Origin: a virus
Virus record (IMG/VR): IMGVR_UViG_3300010354_000512
Span: 1 to 27,039 of that record
Reading direction: 5' to 3' (one strand)
Length of the DNA: 27,039 nucleotides
The first letter of the stretch is position 1; every line of letters starts with the position of its first letter. This document shows positions 7,504-21,061 of the stretch, piece after piece. A program made the position numbers and the translations under genes. Below the pieces are notes generated by a model, which was not told where the DNA came from, did not search any database, and saw only the letters and a list, made by a program, of their open reading frames with translations.

Positions 7504-8109
7504 ATGACATTCAACATTAATCAATTTAAAAATCAACTAACATTTGGTGGAGCTAGACCTTCGTTGTTTCAAGTACAACTAAGTCTTCCAGCCAACTTGT
7601 CGGATCCTGTAGATAATGGTATATCTGATGCTGCTGGACTTTCTGGAAGTACAGTTGAAAGAAAATTGGCTTTTATGTGTAGAGCTACCTCTATACCAGC
7701 CAGCACGATTGCAGCGATAGACGTACCATACTTTGGAAGAAAAACCAAGGTTGCAGGAAACAGAACCTTTGCTCCATGGTCTATAACAGTAATTAACGAT
7801 GAGGACTTTCTAGTTCGCAAATCGTTGGAAAACTGGATGGCTTCCATAAATGGACATGCAAGTAATTTAAAAAATTCTGGCATAACATCTCGCCCAGCCG
7901 ATTATCAATCAACAGCAACGGTTAGACAGTTTGGTAAAGGTCCAGAAGAAGTTGCAATCAGAGCATATAAGTTTGTGAATCTTTTTCCAACCGAAGTTTC
8001 AACTATTGAACTAGATTGGAATACCACAGACACAATCGAGGAGTTTACAGTAACATTTGAATATGATTACTGGGAAATTGAAAGCTCCTTGGATGTTGGT
8101 GTAGTATAG
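7504..8109 (+). CDS. 19: Tail tube protein gp19
   Basis: Inner tail tube through which DNA passes. The T4 gp19 family pattern is clear: FGGARPSLFQVQLSLP (about 15-30), CRATSIPAST, IDVPYFGRKTKVAGNRTF, WSITVINDEDFLVRKSLENWMASINGH and the C-terminal IELDWNTTDTIEEFTVTFEYDYWEI. Length 201 against 163 in T4, partly from a segment around residues 35-55 (SDPVDNGISDAAGLSGSTVE) absent from the paralogue at 8189. A strong AAGGAG ribosome site precedes the ATG, and a terminator hairpin follows at 8143-8167. Confidence 0.94.
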   Translation: MTFNINQFKNQLTFGGARPSLFQVQLSLPANLSDPVDNGISDAAGLSGSTVERKLAFMCRATSIPASTIAAIDVPYFGRKTKVAGNRTFAPWSITVINDEDFLVRKSLENWMASINGHASNLKNSGITSRPADYQSTATVRQFGKGPEEVAIRAYKFVNLFPTEVSTIELDWNTTDTIEEFTVTFEYDYWEIESSLDVGVV

Positions 8110-8126
8110 TATTTTTTTACATTACG

Positions 8127-8134
8127 CATAAATA
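8127..8134 (+). promoter_or_regulatory. Late promoter box CATAAATA upstream of second gp19-like gene
   Basis: Same CATAAATA box as before gp19, 17 bp after the gp19 stop. It sits immediately before the terminator-like hairpin at 8143-8167, so transcripts initiated here should begin just upstream of that hairpin. Confidence 0.55.
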
Positions 8135-8142
8135 ATAGTAAC

Positions 8143-8167
8143 TCGCCTTCTTTAGAGAAGGCGTTTT
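8143..8167 (+). terminator. Intrinsic terminator after gp19
   Basis: CGCCTTCT (8144-8151) pairs with AGAAGGCG (8156-8163) around a TTAG loop, followed by TTTTACTTTA. The 8-bp GC-containing stem plus T-run is a standard factor-independent terminator and would limit read-through from gp18/gp19 into the paralogue. Confidence 0.75.
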
Positions 8168-8188
8168 ACTTTATGGTAAAAAAACTAT

Positions 8189-8740
8189 ATGCCATTTAAT
8201 ATAACAAATTTTAAAAGCAGATTCAATTTTGGTGGGGCAAGACCTTGTTTATTTCAAGTTCAACTTACTTTACCTGAAGGAGTTAATACGGAACAATTTC
8301 GTTCCACATTTGCTGAAAAATTTTCATTTACTTGCAAGTCAGCTTCTATTCCAGGAAGCTCAGTTTCAAACATAGAAATACCATTTCAAGGAAGAAAAGT
8401 ATATTGTGCGGGAAATAGAGTGTTTGAACCTTGGACTGTTACTGTATTAAATGATGAAGATTTTTTGGTTAGAAGGGCATTTGAATTCTGGTTGTCTTCT
8501 ATAAATGGACACTCAACAAATCAGCCCAGGTCTTTATCTTTTGGATCAGCTAGTCCAAAAAATTATCAAACAGATGCCATAGTAAAACAATTTTCTCAAC
8601 AATATACAGAAATTCCTATTGCAACATACACATTTAAAAATTTGTTCCCCACAGAAATTTCTCCGATGGAATTGGACTGGAATGAAACCGATACTGTGGA
8701 ACAATTTAATGTTACTTTTAGATATGATTACTGGACTTAA
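8189..8740 (+). CDS. Second gp19-family tail tube protein (paralogue)
   Basis: A 183-residue homologue of the preceding tube protein sharing FGGARPCLFQVQL, CKSASIPGSS, IPFQGRKVYCAGNRVF, LNDEDFLVRRAFEFWLSSINGH, NLFPTEISPMELDWNETDT and a C-terminal FRYDYWT. By eye about half the residues are identical, so the duplication is old and both copies are under constraint. Unlike gp19 it has no strong Shine-Dalgarno (GGTAAAAAAAC before the ATG) and lies behind a terminator with its own late promoter, which suggests a less abundant, specialised tube or baseplate-proximal component. Confidence 0.88.
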   Translation: MPFNITNFKSRFNFGGARPCLFQVQLTLPEGVNTEQFRSTFAEKFSFTCKSASIPGSSVSNIEIPFQGRKVYCAGNRVFEPWTVTVLNDEDFLVRRAFEFWLSSINGHSTNQPRSLSFGSASPKNYQTDAIVKQFSQQYTEIPIATYTFKNLFPTEISPMELDWNETDTVEQFNVTFRYDYWT

Positions 8741-15028: not shown

Positions 15029-16339
15029 ATGAAACTAAAAATTAAAAAAGAAGAAATACTTGATTGTGTATCCAAAAACATGAGTCAGCGAGAGATTGCT
15101 GAACATTTTTCTGTATGCAGAGAGTATGTAAGAAATCTCTTTAAGCACTACGATATTCCAATAACCAACAGAAGAAAAAAACCACCGATATCTAAAGATA
15201 TATTGATAGATGAGAATCATACTAATAACTTAACACTAAAAGAAATCTCTAAAAAATACGGTAGAACATATCGCTCAATTAAGCATATGTTTAAAAAATA
15301 TGGCATAGAAGTTAAAAATAATATTATACAAAAGAATAATAGAAATAGAGAAGAGCGAGTTGCTCAAGCAAAAGAGTTATATGGATCACTGACCAGATAT
15401 GAACTTCAAAAGAAACTTAACATAGGTCAACAATATATAAATGAGGCTTTAAAAGATGAGCCGCATAGATTTGCAAATAAATCTTCTTTGGAGATTAAAC
15501 TGTCCGAATATCTAAAATCACTTGATATTGAACATGATTCTTCAGTTAAAGATATAATACATCCAAAGGAGCTTGACATCTATATACCAAGCAAAAAATT
15601 GGCTATTGAAGTTAATGGACTATTTTGGCATTCAACCAATGGTGGCAGAAGTGTTGATAAAAATTATCATTTGGAAAAAACAAATCAATGCAAGAAACTT
15701 GGAATAAAACTATTGCACTTCTTTGAAGATGAGCTTAAAGAAAAGCTGGAAATATGTAAAGGTATAATAGACGCAAATATACGAGATGGAGAACAAATAT
15801 ATGCCAGAAAATGTTCTATTAAAGAGATATCTCATACAGAATCAAAAAATTTCTGTGACAAATATCATTTGCAAGGAAGCACAATAGCCACAGCACACAT
15901 AGGATTATTCTATGAAAACTCTTTGGTTAGTGTAATGACATTTAGAAAACACAGATTTTCTAAAAATACAAATGCTTGGGAAATAATAAGATATTGCACA
16001 AAAAATCACACTAGAGTTATAGGAGGTGCATCCAAATTGTTTTCCAAATTTTTAGAATTATATAATCCCAACCGAGTTGTTTCTTATGCGGATATTAGAA
16101 TATCCAATGGAAATGTATATGAAAGATTGGGATTCAAGTATTCACATACAACCACACCAAACTACTATTATATCATTGGAAAAAATAGATCCAATAGACT
16201 AAATTGGCAGAAAAAATCTTTATCCAAAAAGCTCAAAATTTATAATCCAAATCTGACCGAAGAAGAAAACATGAAACTTAATGGATACAATAGGATATAT
16301 GATTGTGGAAACAAAGTGTATGTTTGGAATCTTAATTAA
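15029..16339 (+). CDS. Free-standing homing-endonuclease-like protein (Vsr/PD-(D/E)xK type)
   Basis: 436 residues. N-terminus: helix-turn-helix-like units at about 15-45 (SQREIAEHFSVCREYVRNLF), 68-95 (LTLKEISKKYGRTYRSIKHM) and perhaps 120-142. Middle: SSLEIKLSEYL (E155), ELDIYIPSKKLAIEVNGLFW (D183, E194) then H201, H214, C221 and LLHFFEDE (229-235), the pattern of Vsr-like nucleases found as phage homing enzymes. C-terminus about 255-436: a separate domain with LVSVMTFRKHRF, GGASKLFSKFL and YADIRISNGNVYERLGF, a usual companion of this nuclease. It lies between a terminator and a late promoter, with AT-rich codons and a poor ribosome site, as expected of an intruder. gp23 itself is intact. Confidence 0.82.
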   Translation: MKLKIKKEEILDCVSKNMSQREIAEHFSVCREYVRNLFKHYDIPITNRRKKPPISKDILIDENHTNNLTLKEISKKYGRTYRSIKHMFKKYGIEVKNNIIQKNNRNREERVAQAKELYGSLTRYELQKKLNIGQQYINEALKDEPHRFANKSSLEIKLSEYLKSLDIEHDSSVKDIIHPKELDIYIPSKKLAIEVNGLFWHSTNGGRSVDKNYHLEKTNQCKKLGIKLLHFFEDELKEKLEICKGIIDANIRDGEQIYARKCSIKEISHTESKNFCDKYHLQGSTIATAHIGLFYENSLVSVMTFRKHRFSKNTNAWEIIRYCTKNHTRVIGGASKLFSKFLELYNPNRVVSYADIRISNGNVYERLGFKYSHTTTPNYYYIIGKNRSNRLNWQKKSLSKKLKIYNPNLTEEENMKLNGYNRIYDCGNKVYVWNLN

Positions 16340-16421: not shown

Positions 16422-16988
16422 ATGACTATAACAAATGTAGAAAATAGAAATTTTCAATCTCCTTTAAACTATGAGTTTAGAGTTGATAGATTGAAAGATT
16501 TTGATTTCTTTGTCCAAAAAGTAAACATCCCATCTCTTAGTCTCCCCACAGCGTCAAATGGTGGTTCAAATCCTTTTGTAAAAATTCCATATCCTGGAGA
16601 TCATTTGGAGTTCGGAGAATTATCCGTTGATTTTAAAGTAAGTGAGGGTCTTTATAATTGGTATGAAATATTTTCCTGGATGCAAGGGCTAGGATTTCCT
16701 GAGAGATTGCAGCAATATGTGGATCTTAAATCTGGTTCAACCAAAGATTTAAATGGAAAAATAATTCCACCAAAAATGCTAAGACAGCCTCATGGGAATT
16801 TATACGGTCAAGCATCATTAATTATTAACACAAGTCAAAACAATCCATCTGTAAAAATAAATTTTGTGGATATATATCCTGTAAATTTATCTGAAATATC
16901 TTTGGACACCAGAGATTCAGAGGTTTTGCATGTAACTTCTTCGGTTAGTTTCAAGTATGATTATTTTACAGTAGAAAAACTTTTATAA
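16422..16988 (+). CDS. gp19-like tail structural protein
   Basis: 188 residues of beta-rich sequence: NYEFRVDRLKDFDFFVQKVNIPSLSLP in two pieces, PYPGDHLEFGELSVDFKVSE, YNWYEIFSWMQGLGFPERLQ, and a C-terminal SSVSFKYDYFTVEKLL. The last block resembles the FEYDYWEIE end of the tube proteins here. The whole is like a conserved marine T4-like virion family often placed near tail tube or tail completion genes. T4-like phages of this kind may carry tail completion gene 3 in this slot, but I cannot confirm homology to T4 gp3. The late promoter supports a virion role. Confidence 0.65.
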   Translation: MTITNVENRNFQSPLNYEFRVDRLKDFDFFVQKVNIPSLSLPTASNGGSNPFVKIPYPGDHLEFGELSVDFKVSEGLYNWYEIFSWMQGLGFPERLQQYVDLKSGSTKDLNGKIIPPKMLRQPHGNLYGQASLIINTSQNNPSVKINFVDIYPVNLSEISLDTRDSEVLHVTSSVSFKYDYFTVEKLL

Positions 16989-17373: not shown

Positions 17374-17620
17374 TACACCAAATTGGATAAAACAATTAAA
17401 TAAAAATGATGTTTTTGTGTTGGTATTTCCCAGCATAAACAAATCTGTATTAGCTGAAGTTATAGAAAATAGCCCAGTTTTGGACGAAAGCACTTATTTT
17501 GGAATTATAACTGTAAATTATAACAGCAACAATTTTGTTAACCAAGATGATTTGCTATACGATGATTATTCAGAAGATTCAACCAATAAAAATTCTTGGT
17601 ATGGACAAATATTGATGTAA
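17366..17620 (+). CDS. Hypothetical acidic protein
   Basis: 84 residues that I do not recognise. It starts MSNTPNWIKQLNKNDVFVLV, has a beta-like first half, then a polar acidic segment (DDLLYDDYSEDSTNKN). It overlaps the HExxH gene by 8 bp and so is probably co-translated with it. It is the last gene before the early-type promoter of uvsY. Confidence 0.6.
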   Translation: MSNTPNWIKQLNKNDVFVLVFPSINKSVLAEVIENSPVLDESTYFGIITVNYNSNNFVNQDDLLYDDYSEDSTNKNSWYGQILM

Positions 17621-17655
17621 TTTCACACATCACATAAATTAAGTGATGCATTATC

Positions 17656-17685
17656 TTTACATAATCTTATAGTGTGCTATACAAT
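17656..17685 (+). promoter_or_regulatory. Early-type sigma70 promoter upstream of uvsY
   Basis: TTTACA (17656-17661), 16-bp spacer, then TGTGC immediately before TATACA (17678-17683). The TGTGnTA extended -10 with a TTTACA -35 is typical of T4 early promoters. It lies 38 bp before the uvsY ATG, and a near-identical GTGTGCTA occurs in the promoter at 26522-26550. Confidence 0.6.
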
Positions 17686-17699
17686 CAGTTAAACTATTA

Positions 17700-17720
17700 A
17701 GATATTATTAAATATTATCT
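17700..17720 (+). promoter_or_regulatory. Hairpin abutting the uvsY start codon
   Basis: AGATA (17700-17704) pairs with TATCT (17716-17720), with three further pairs after one T-T mismatch and a 3-base loop. The stem ends directly at the ATG, and no Shine-Dalgarno is visible. It is all A-T except one pair, so stability is modest. Confidence 0.3.
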
Positions 17721-18152
17721 ATGAAATTGGAAGACATTGAAATTTTATGGGAGCAGGATGCAAAAATCGATAGAACAGATTTGGATAATGAGAGTCTTAA
17801 AATACCAACACTTCATAGCAAATACTATAAAATATATTTGCGAGAAAAAGTCCAACTAAAAGCCGAAGAGCAAGAGTATAAGATATTCTATAAGCTAAAG
17901 CATGAATACTATACTGGAAAATTATCTCAAGAAGATTTAACTCACTATAGTTGGCAACCTTTTCCCTTTGTTCTAAAGGGAGATTTACAAATATATATGG
18001 AATCGGATAAAGACCTAGCCGAAAAACTACTGAAACTTCAAGTGCAGAGAGAAAAAGTAGAATTGCTGGAAAATATTATCAAGACTCTTAACGGAAGAGG
18101 CTTTCTAATCAAAAACGCCATAGATTTTATACGCTTTACTAGCGGCAACTAA
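17721..18152 (+). CDS. uvsY: Recombination mediator UvsY
   Basis: Loads the UvsX recombinase onto gp32-coated single strands in recombination-dependent replication. 143 residues (T4 137). N-terminal MKLEDIEILWEQDAKIDRTDLDNES-type sequence mirrors MRLEDLQEELKKDVFIDSTKL of T4. The middle has KLKHEYYTGKLSQED, like the RLDYYSGRGD segment, and the C-terminus NGRGFLIKNAIDFIRF matches SRGFAIKHIQDMRAF. An early-type promoter precedes it and uvsW follows after 54 bp, as in other T4-like phages. Confidence 0.88.
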   Translation: MKLEDIEILWEQDAKIDRTDLDNESLKIPTLHSKYYKIYLREKVQLKAEEQEYKIFYKLKHEYYTGKLSQEDLTHYSWQPFPFVLKGDLQIYMESDKDLAEKLLKLQVQREKVELLENIIKTLNGRGFLIKNAIDFIRFTSGN

Positions 18153-18160
18153 CCAAATAT

Positions 18161-18209
18161 CATTACTAAATATAACAGCATAGTATAATGTTTGTTATTA
18201 TTAGTAATG
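18161..18209 (+). promoter_or_regulatory. Start-codon hairpin with a -10 box in its loop (uvsW leader)
   Basis: CATTACTAA (18161-18169) is the exact reverse complement of TTAGTAATG (18201-18209), whose last three bases are the uvsW start codon. Inside, ATAACA (18172-18177) pairs with TGTTAT (18193-18198) after a 2x2 mismatch, making 15 bp in total. The loop (18178-18192) contains a consensus TATAAT (18184-18189). A transcript from that -10 would begin near 18196 and lack the left arm, while read-through from uvsY would hide the start codon. No good -35 is visible. Confidence 0.55.
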
Positions 18210-19679
18210 GAAAAACTGATTGTAGCCAAATTAGATGAGGTATATCTTCAAGTTTCTTGCGACTCAGGTGTGGCTAGAGAGCTTGTTGATTATTTTTCAT
18301 TTTATGTTCCAGGCTATAGATTCATGCCAGCATACCGTATGCGTATGTGGGATGGAAAACTCAGATTGTTCAATTTAATGAACTACACTCTTTATCTGGG
18401 TTTACTTCCATATCTACATGAATTTTGCAAATCCAGAGATTATGAAATTACAGTTGATTCTTCTTTGACTGATACTTTGCAATTTTCTGATATTGATTGT
18501 AAAGATTTTTTGAATAAACTTTCTCTTCCATTTGAAGCCAGAGATTACCAAGCGCAAGCAATCCAGCACAGCATAAAAAATCATAGAGCATTGTTATTGT
18601 CTCCTACAGGATCAGGAAAAAGTCTGATCATATATGCATTAACACAATACTACAATAAGAAAACCTTGATAATAGTTCCCACCATATCATTGGTTTCGCA
18701 GATGTTTTCGGACTTTAAGCAGTATGCCAAAAACAATTCTAAAATAAATGTTGATTCACTATATCACTGTATTTATGGCGGTCAAGATAAAAATACAAGT
18801 AAAAAATTTGTAATATCCACCTGGCAGTCTATCTATAAACTTCCTAAATCTTGGTTCGATGAGTTTGAAGTTGTAATTACCGATGAAGTGCATTTAGCAA
18901 AAGCCAAGTCGCTTACAAATATAATGACAAAAATGGATAAAACCAAATATAGATTTGGCACCACAGGAACTTTAGACGGAACTCAAACTCACAAATTGGT
19001 TTTGGAAGGATTATTTGGTAAAACATTTTCTGTTACCACAACCAAAACTTTAATGGACAAAAAACAGCTTGCTGAATTGTTTATAGATTGCATTGTTTTA
19101 AAATATGATGAGGAGATTTCCAAATCCATTAAGAACTTTAACTATCAAGAAGAAATAAAATTTTTGGTTCAAAATGAAAAGCGTAACAAGTTTATTAGAA
19201 ATTTGGCGATAAGCACAAATTCAAATTGCTTGGTTATATTTCAATTAGTTGAGCTTCACGGTAAAGTATTGCACAAGATGATTGTGGATAAACTATCAGT
19301 TTCAGATCCTACAAGAAAAGTATTTTTTGTTTCTGGAGAAACTGATGCTGAAATTCGAGAAGATATACGAAACATAACAGAGAATGAAAAAAATGCCATC
19401 ATAGTTGCATCCAGTGGAGTTTTTTCTACGGGAATAAACATAAGAAATTTGGAAAATATAATATTTGCTTCTCCTACAAAATCAAGAATCAAAACTCTAC
19501 AGTCTATAGGAAGAACTCTTAGAATTGGAGACAATTCTGATAAAGCAAAACTATACGATATTGTGGATGATTTAACTCACAAAAGTCACAAAAACTTTGC
19601 CGTAAAGCATTTTATGGAAAGAATCAAGATTTATAATGAAGAAAAATTTAAGTATAAATTATTAAAAGTGAATATTTAA
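18207..19679 (+). CDS. uvsW: RNA-DNA/DNA helicase UvsW
   Basis: SF2 helicase that unwinds R-loops and remodels forks and recombination intermediates, switching replication from origin to recombination mode. The ATG at 18207 gives 490 residues; a TTG 15 bp upstream is disfavoured because the protein aligns with T4 UvsW from the ATG. N-terminal DNA-binding part: FFSFYVPGYRF-like (30-39) and WDGKLRLF (48-55). Helicase motifs: Walker A SPTGSGKS (132-139), DEVH (226-229), VSGETD (375-380), ASSGVFSTGI (401-410), QSIGRTLR (432-439). All are intact. The start codon lies in a hairpin arm. Confidence 0.95.
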   Translation: MEKLIVAKLDEVYLQVSCDSGVARELVDYFSFYVPGYRFMPAYRMRMWDGKLRLFNLMNYTLYLGLLPYLHEFCKSRDYEITVDSSLTDTLQFSDIDCKDFLNKLSLPFEARDYQAQAIQHSIKNHRALLLSPTGSGKSLIIYALTQYYNKKTLIIVPTISLVSQMFSDFKQYAKNNSKINVDSLYHCIYGGQDKNTSKKFVISTWQSIYKLPKSWFDEFEVVITDEVHLAKAKSLTNIMTKMDKTKYRFGTTGTLDGTQTHKLVLEGLFGKTFSVTTTKTLMDKKQLAELFIDCIVLKYDEEISKSIKNFNYQEEIKFLVQNEKRNKFIRNLAISTNSNCLVIFQLVELHGKVLHKMIVDKLSVSDPTRKVFFVSGETDAEIREDIRNITENEKNAIIVASSGVFSTGINIRNLENIIFASPTKSRIKTLQSIGRTLRIGDNSDKAKLYDIVDDLTHKSHKNFAVKHFMERIKIYNEEKFKYKLLKVNI

Positions 19680-20431: not shown

Positions 20432-21061
20432 ATGTCCAAAACTTCATTTAGAAAATTACATTATGTAAACAATCCTGAATTCCTAGAACACATGAAAAAG
20501 CACGTTGCTTTGGTAAAGGAATGTAAAGAGCAAAATAAAAATCCTCCTCAAGTATCAGATTATATAGGCGAGTGTATTTACTCTATAGCTACTAAATTGG
20601 CTAATAAACCCAATTTTATGAATTATCCGTTTAGAGATGAGATGATTTCAGATGGTATAGAAAACTCTCTTCAATATATCAACAATTTTAATCCATCGAA
20701 GAGTTCAAATCCTTTTGCATACTTTACTCAAATAATATACTATGCTTTTGTTAGACGAATACAAAGAGAAAAAAAGCATCTGTATGCCAAATATAGACTA
20801 ATCGAAGAGTCTTTAATTCACGATATATCCGAAAATGAATACTTACACGCCACAAAATATGGCAGCGATCAGGCAGATTTAAATATGCATGAGTTTGTGG
20901 AGAATTTTGAAAAAAGCAGAGAAACTAAAAAGGCAAAAGCTAAATTAGCCAGCACTAAAAAGAAAAATTTGGATTTTGATGATATTTTTGAACAATTGGC
21001 TCAAGAAGCTGATTTTTTAGAGGAGATTGAAATTGATGAAAACTCAGAGCAAGAAAAATAA
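20432..21061 (+). CDS. 55: Late-transcription sigma factor gp55
   Basis: Directs host RNA polymerase to NATAAATA late promoters, with the sliding clamp and gp33 in T4. 209 residues (T4 185). T4-like features: the LHYVNNPEFLEHMKKH start, SDYIGECIYSIATKLANKPNF-type helix, FRDEMISDGIENSLQYINNF (about 68-87), and NPFAYFTQIIYYAFVRRIQREKKHLYAKY in pieces (about 92-120), the sigma2-like core that reads the late box. The C-terminus has DFDDIFEQLAQEADFLEEI, where the clamp-binding end of T4 gp55 lies, but extra residues follow it. No clear Shine-Dalgarno; a hairpin lies just upstream. Confidence 0.92.
   Translation: MSKTSFRKLHYVNNPEFLEHMKKHVALVKECKEQNKNPPQVSDYIGECIYSIATKLANKPNFMNYPFRDEMISDGIENSLQYINNFNPSKSSNPFAYFTQIIYYAFVRRIQREKKHLYAKYRLIEESLIHDISENEYLHATKYGSDQADLNMHEFVENFEKSRETKKAKAKLASTKKKNLDFDDIFEQLAQEADFLEEIEIDENSEQEK

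Follow-up and report, generated by a model that had tools for sequence, protein, structure and literature searches.

A predicted start-codon hairpin with an embedded candidate late promoter at uvsW in a clade of T4-like phages

Masking of a start codon by a hairpin that itself contains a late promoter is known from genes of phage T4 (PMC3014915, PMC2988022). In gene 49 (endonuclease VII), for which masking has been described in the literature (PMC3014915), the late motif (AATAAATA) lies in the left arm of the hairpin, the start codon sits directly at its 3′ end, and the late mRNA loses the left arm. Long early mRNAs of the lysozyme gene e are likewise masked (PMC3014915); two late promoters lie where the 5′ strand is encoded, and the hairpin of e encloses a strong Shine-Dalgarno (SD) sequence. 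The leaders of the homing endonucleases I-TevI, I-TevII, I-TevIII, SegB, and MobE also have a late promoter so placed that the inhibitory structure is missing from late transcripts (PMC2988022); these are genes of mobile elements and have a consensus ribosome-binding site. The T4 gene uvsW is expressed from a late promoter; its product unwinds R-loops at origins and contributes to shutting down origin replication (PMC3016281), which is why the timing of UvsW matters. The gene goes unmentioned in a review of post-transcriptional control in T4, and we found no report of a masked uvsW in the literature searched, in agreement with a preceding sequence-only reading of the DNA studied here, which knew of none for a uvsW relative; an earlier remark on the structure of the T4 uvsW leader may exist.

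Here, we analyzed the uvsW start in a stretch of viral DNA of 27,039 nucleotides (the window). The window is a region of a T4-like phage and encodes terminase, tail sheath, tail tube, portal, major head protein, UvsY, UvsW, and a late sigma factor of the gp55 type. All features of the locus lie on the plus strand. The genes uvsY (17721–18152; PHROGs UvsY-like recombination mediator, E 2e-36) and uvsW (18207–19679; PHROGs DNA helicase, E 2e-99) had been named correctly from the letters alone, and the sigma factor gene (20432–21061; PHROGs late sigma transcription factor, E 3.8e-54) is expected to encode the reader of TAAATA promoters. The closest annotated isolates by UvsW, at no more than 54% identity, are phages of Methylophilales, Pelagibacter, and Synechococcus, and the three isolate records checked among these nearest phages are all classed as Kyanoviridae; the group that carries the design described below consists of T4-like phages related to cyanophages. 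Elsewhere in the window, an HNH or homing-endonuclease-like gene (15029–16339) is located between the major head protein and tail tube genes, and two tail tube-like genes (7504–8109 and 16422–16988) both belong to PHROG family phrog_45.

The inverted repeat of nine plus six base pairs that had been read at the uvsW start is indeed present, with a left (5′) arm at 18161–18177 and a right (3′) arm at 18193–18209, each of 17 nt, 88% complementary and separated by a spacer of 15 nt. The stem is composed of a perfect 9-bp helix (CATTACTAA/TTAGTAATG), a 2×2 internal loop, and a 6-bp helix (ATAACA/TGTTAT), and the last base of the right arm is the G of the uvsW ATG (18207–18209). RNA spanning 18150–18230 is predicted to fold at −16.1 kcal/mol (z −3.1), with none of 200 shuffles as stable, and the region from −50 to +3 of uvsW gives z −4.3 (p = 0.001 against shuffles). 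Once the left arm is removed, as in RNA 18178–18230, the fold shows no stem across the arms, which is the outcome that the sequence-only reading had anticipated for this comparison. The uvsW gene of the window has no SD.

The left arm contains ACTAAATA (18165–18172), an element that the earlier reading did not mention and that resembles the core of a gp55-type late promoter; late promoters have the form TATAAATA in T4 and NATAAATA in S-PM2 (PMC2984593). In the window together with nine related records, positions just upstream of genes are enriched about 14–21-fold in NATAAATA and 14.5-fold in ACTAAATA relative to the rest of the sequence, in counts that include the uvsW leaders themselves and among them some with CTAAATA, while AGTAAATA, CGTAAATA, and GGTAAATA never occur just upstream of genes in the same records. 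It is likely that uvsW is served by this candidate late promoter inside the left arm. The core in the window reads CTAAATA and not ATAAATA, and the strength of the promoter is therefore uncertain. If the start site follows T4 geometry, as we assume, transcription would begin at the sixth base after TAAATA, at 18178, which is the first base past the left arm, and would yield a 29-nt leader from which the left arm is absent. This predicted leader also contains an out-of-frame AUG (18188) that opens a 16-codon reading frame overlapping the uvsW start (18188–18238). In three phages (window 8127–8189, G001 near 40404, and G003 near 20491), a gene start comes after a terminator-like hairpin (CGCCTTC...GAAGGCG, TTTTAC) that itself lies immediately behind a late motif.

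Scans of IMG/VR recovered 13 further distinct leaders of the same design, giving 14 with the window. The UvsW proteins of these relatives are 66–78% identical to that of the window, except for the intein-carrying G010/G011, which have a single leader in common. The uvsW reading frame of L195 (31–2574), and likewise of L196, carries at Walker A (PTG / SGKS) an in-frame insert of about 350 amino acids that looks like an intein with a LAGLIDADG-type motif. The motif [AC]TAAATA is found 25–46 nt upstream of the uvsW ATG in all 14 distinct leaders, against a chance expectation of about 2.4% per shuffled sequence, and a first survey of 128 distinct upstream regions showed it at −20 to −50 in none outside the group; in a wider set of 165 upstream regions, the remaining matches lie at −13, −14, or −55. 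The ATG start is kept throughout the clade, the hairpins of the relatives close at the ATG or a few bases from it (over it in G013), and an SD at uvsW is missing in most members. Ten sequences gave hairpin z values from −1.1 to −6.0 (Stouffer −12.7).

The sequences of the arms are mostly unrelated among relatives, although some pairs, G006/G014 and G001/G002 among them, do resemble each other. As most arms cannot be aligned, column-by-column covariation was replaced by an arm-swap test, in which each left half was paired with the right halves of the other sequences. Native pairs reached a mean of −16.2 kcal/mol and swapped pairs one of −7.3 (sd 3.2), and 10 of the 14 native pairs were better than all 26 of their own swaps, the exceptions being G002, G009, G013, and G014. 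The compensatory change that had been proposed as a check on relatives is therefore seen in the form of arms that change together and keep their pairing in 14 distinct sequences.

To express this as accessibility, we predicted the energy needed to open positions −8 to +5 of the uvsW start in the long and in the late mRNA, with a null in which only the 5′ part missing from the late mRNA was shuffled. In the window, this opening energy falls from 11.6 kcal/mol in the long form to 4.6 in the late mRNA, and shuffling of the 5′ part gives 4.7 ± 1.6 (p = 0.007); across the clade, it falls from 5.2–16.4 to 1.1–4.6 kcal/mol. The 14 sequences combined give z 9.3, although such combined values are not strict probabilities because the sequences share ancestry, and G001, G005, G009, G010, and G012 individually fall short of p = 0.05. 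The same procedure singled out the T4 genes 49 (13.8 long, 2.4 short), e (15.9 long, 3.9 or 1.0 short), I-TevII (11.7 and 0.4), and segB (15.5 and 5.7), and more weakly soc (9.5 and 5.8; null 6.7 ± 2.0), with gp53 marginal (9.9 and 6.9; null 7.9 ± 1.3) and gp9 and gp18 not standing out. The start of T4 uvsW is open (1.6 versus 3.9 ± 2.0 shuffled). Thus, of the parallel with T4 that had been drawn from the letters, e is recovered and soc weakly so, whereas T4 uvsW itself is unmasked and convergent with uvsY. Start-codon accessibility is reported to matter for genes without an SD (PMC3121790), and since most clade members lack one at uvsW, it likely matters more here.

In all 14 clade sequences, uvsY lies directly upstream of uvsW on the same strand. 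A tree groups all 14 together with L084 (support 100/99), in which the late motif sits at −13 and no comparable hairpin is present; L084 may have lost the design or may preserve an older state, and its fork is weak (82/60). A late motif 13–14 nt before the uvsW ATG, which predicts a nearly leaderless late mRNA, is shared by L084, L149, and L155. Small open reading frames directly follow uvsY in G001, G002, G003, G005, G007, G008, and G010 and none does so in the window; they comprise 30–38 codons (80 in G010) and are hydrophobic, possibly encoding single-pass membrane proteins, and the one in G010 reads through the hairpin into uvsW. We looked for tRNA genes between uvsY and uvsW, which the sequence of G001 had led us to suspect, and found none. 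No conserved promoter upstream of uvsY, early and middle ones included, could be demonstrated in the clade as a source of read-through, because uvsY comes after, or overlaps with, the gene before it in many relatives.

Although other genes share the design, its consistency is by far greatest at uvsW. Of the 98 late-motif genes scored in the clade, the 13 uvsW genes have a mean z of 2.8 and the 85 others one of 0.3; 11 of these 85 exceed z 2, including gp5-like, gp25-like, tail-fibre-like, and phrog_455 genes, where the first three names were read from sequence and not obtained by search, and where starts of the non-uvsW genes come from a simple ORF caller. At other genes, hairpins that extend to the start codon and have a late motif within or next to them occur at G001 1474, 4329, and 75277, G003 9795, G004 52165, G012 17920 and 50332, and G013 1468, some of them as strong as at uvsW.

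Several other explanations of the hairpin can be weighed against these data. The sequence-only reading had taken the perfect TATAAT hexamer in the loop, which is present at 18184–18189, as the −10 box of a sigma-70 promoter driving an open mRNA from about 18196. The hexamer is exact in only 3 of the 14 clade members, a promoter scan of the window returned no −35-paired site at 18184–18189, and dozens of copies occur on both strands of the AT-rich window, mostly within genes; it is probably no promoter, the candidate was set aside for its lack of conservation and of a −35 site, and we regard an origin of the open mRNA there as exceedingly improbable. The conserved element is instead the late core in the left arm, with its predicted start near 18178. 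Hardly more credible is that the hairpin is no start mask at all and acts as an operator palindrome, an intrinsic terminator, or a spacer that brings an upstream SD near the start. An inverted repeat overlapping a promoter would suit an operator, but arm sequences that are mostly unrelated between relatives speak against a sequence-specific one, and the hairpin is followed by no U-tract (ATGGAAAAACTG) as expected of a terminator. Hairpins between SD and start do improve initiation of T4 genes 25 and 38 (PMC3014915); a conserved SD upstream of the hairpin was, however, looked for in the clade and not found, and Rfam covariance models gave no match in 17600–18600 at E ≤ 1.

A different opener of the mask is somewhat easier to imagine, although it too is unlikely: the hairpin would mask uvsW and be opened when a ribosome finishes translating uvsY, or the small reading frame that some relatives have behind it. 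The uvsY stop codon (18150–18152) lies 8 nt before the left arm in the window, so that a terminating ribosome would overlap the arm, and uvsY and uvsW overlap or abut in most of the more distant relatives, which lack the design. Such translational coupling is disfavoured by the distance from uvsY to the uvsW ATG, which spans anything from 38 to 783 nt among clade members, and it does not account for the invariant late-promoter core of the left arm.

We therefore consider it probable that the hairpin is a cis-acting translational mask of uvsW coupled to the late promoter in its left arm. In RNA that enters uvsW through uvsY, 18161–18177 would pair with 18193–18209 and bury the SD-less start codon, so that UvsW would be made poorly from read-through RNA; the gp55-dependent promoter would start RNA near 18178, and since this late RNA lacks the left arm, its start codon would be open. 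The purpose may be to keep UvsW apart from UvsY and to confine it to late infection. The idea of a masked read-through mRNA and an open local one that came from the letters thus survives in principle, strongly supported by arms that change together in 14 sequences with pairing kept, and not in its TATAAT promoter or its start at 18196.

By prediction, the window combines a sequestered start codon, a late promoter in the 5′ strand, and an open late transcript, as is characteristic of T4-type masking. It shares with T4 gene 49 the late motif in the left arm, the start codon at the 3′ end of the hairpin, and the loss of the left arm from late mRNA, the masking being described for gene 49 and predicted for uvsW. 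As in e, the late promoter occupies the 5′-strand region, but uvsW has no SD and a single late motif; as in the homing endonuclease leaders, the late transcript would be free of the inhibitory structure, but uvsW is a core recombination/replication gene. The homologous T4 uvsW is preceded by segE and convergent with uvsY, has no start-codon hairpin, and has its nearest late motifs at −102 and −656, whereas uvsW of the window is the gene immediately following uvsY and is co-directional with it. Other Kyanoviridae, such as Melnitz-3 and C48C1, have the order uvsY, uvsW, gp55 of the window with uvsW directly after uvsY, but their two genes overlap or are almost contiguous, so that a late promoter and hairpin of this kind would not fit between them.

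The mechanism is already known from T4; we take uvsW as a new case of it, at a gene and in a phage group for which the literature searched held no such report. A broader reading, which we advance tentatively and would put slightly short of an even chance, is a clade-specific switch in which uvsY and uvsW are uncoupled and UvsW is tied to late transcription, with selection acting on pairing while both arms turn over, and in which the same stem-embedded late promoter may control other late genes (gp5, gp25, tail-fibre-like, and phrog_455). With its arms turning over, the locus offers a clean case from nature in which pairing, and not sequence, is under selection. If the mask is conserved, the reach of the T4 mechanism would widen to take in Kyanoviridae-like phages and a gene that lacks an SD, and phages with another gene order would reach late-only UvsW by another route.
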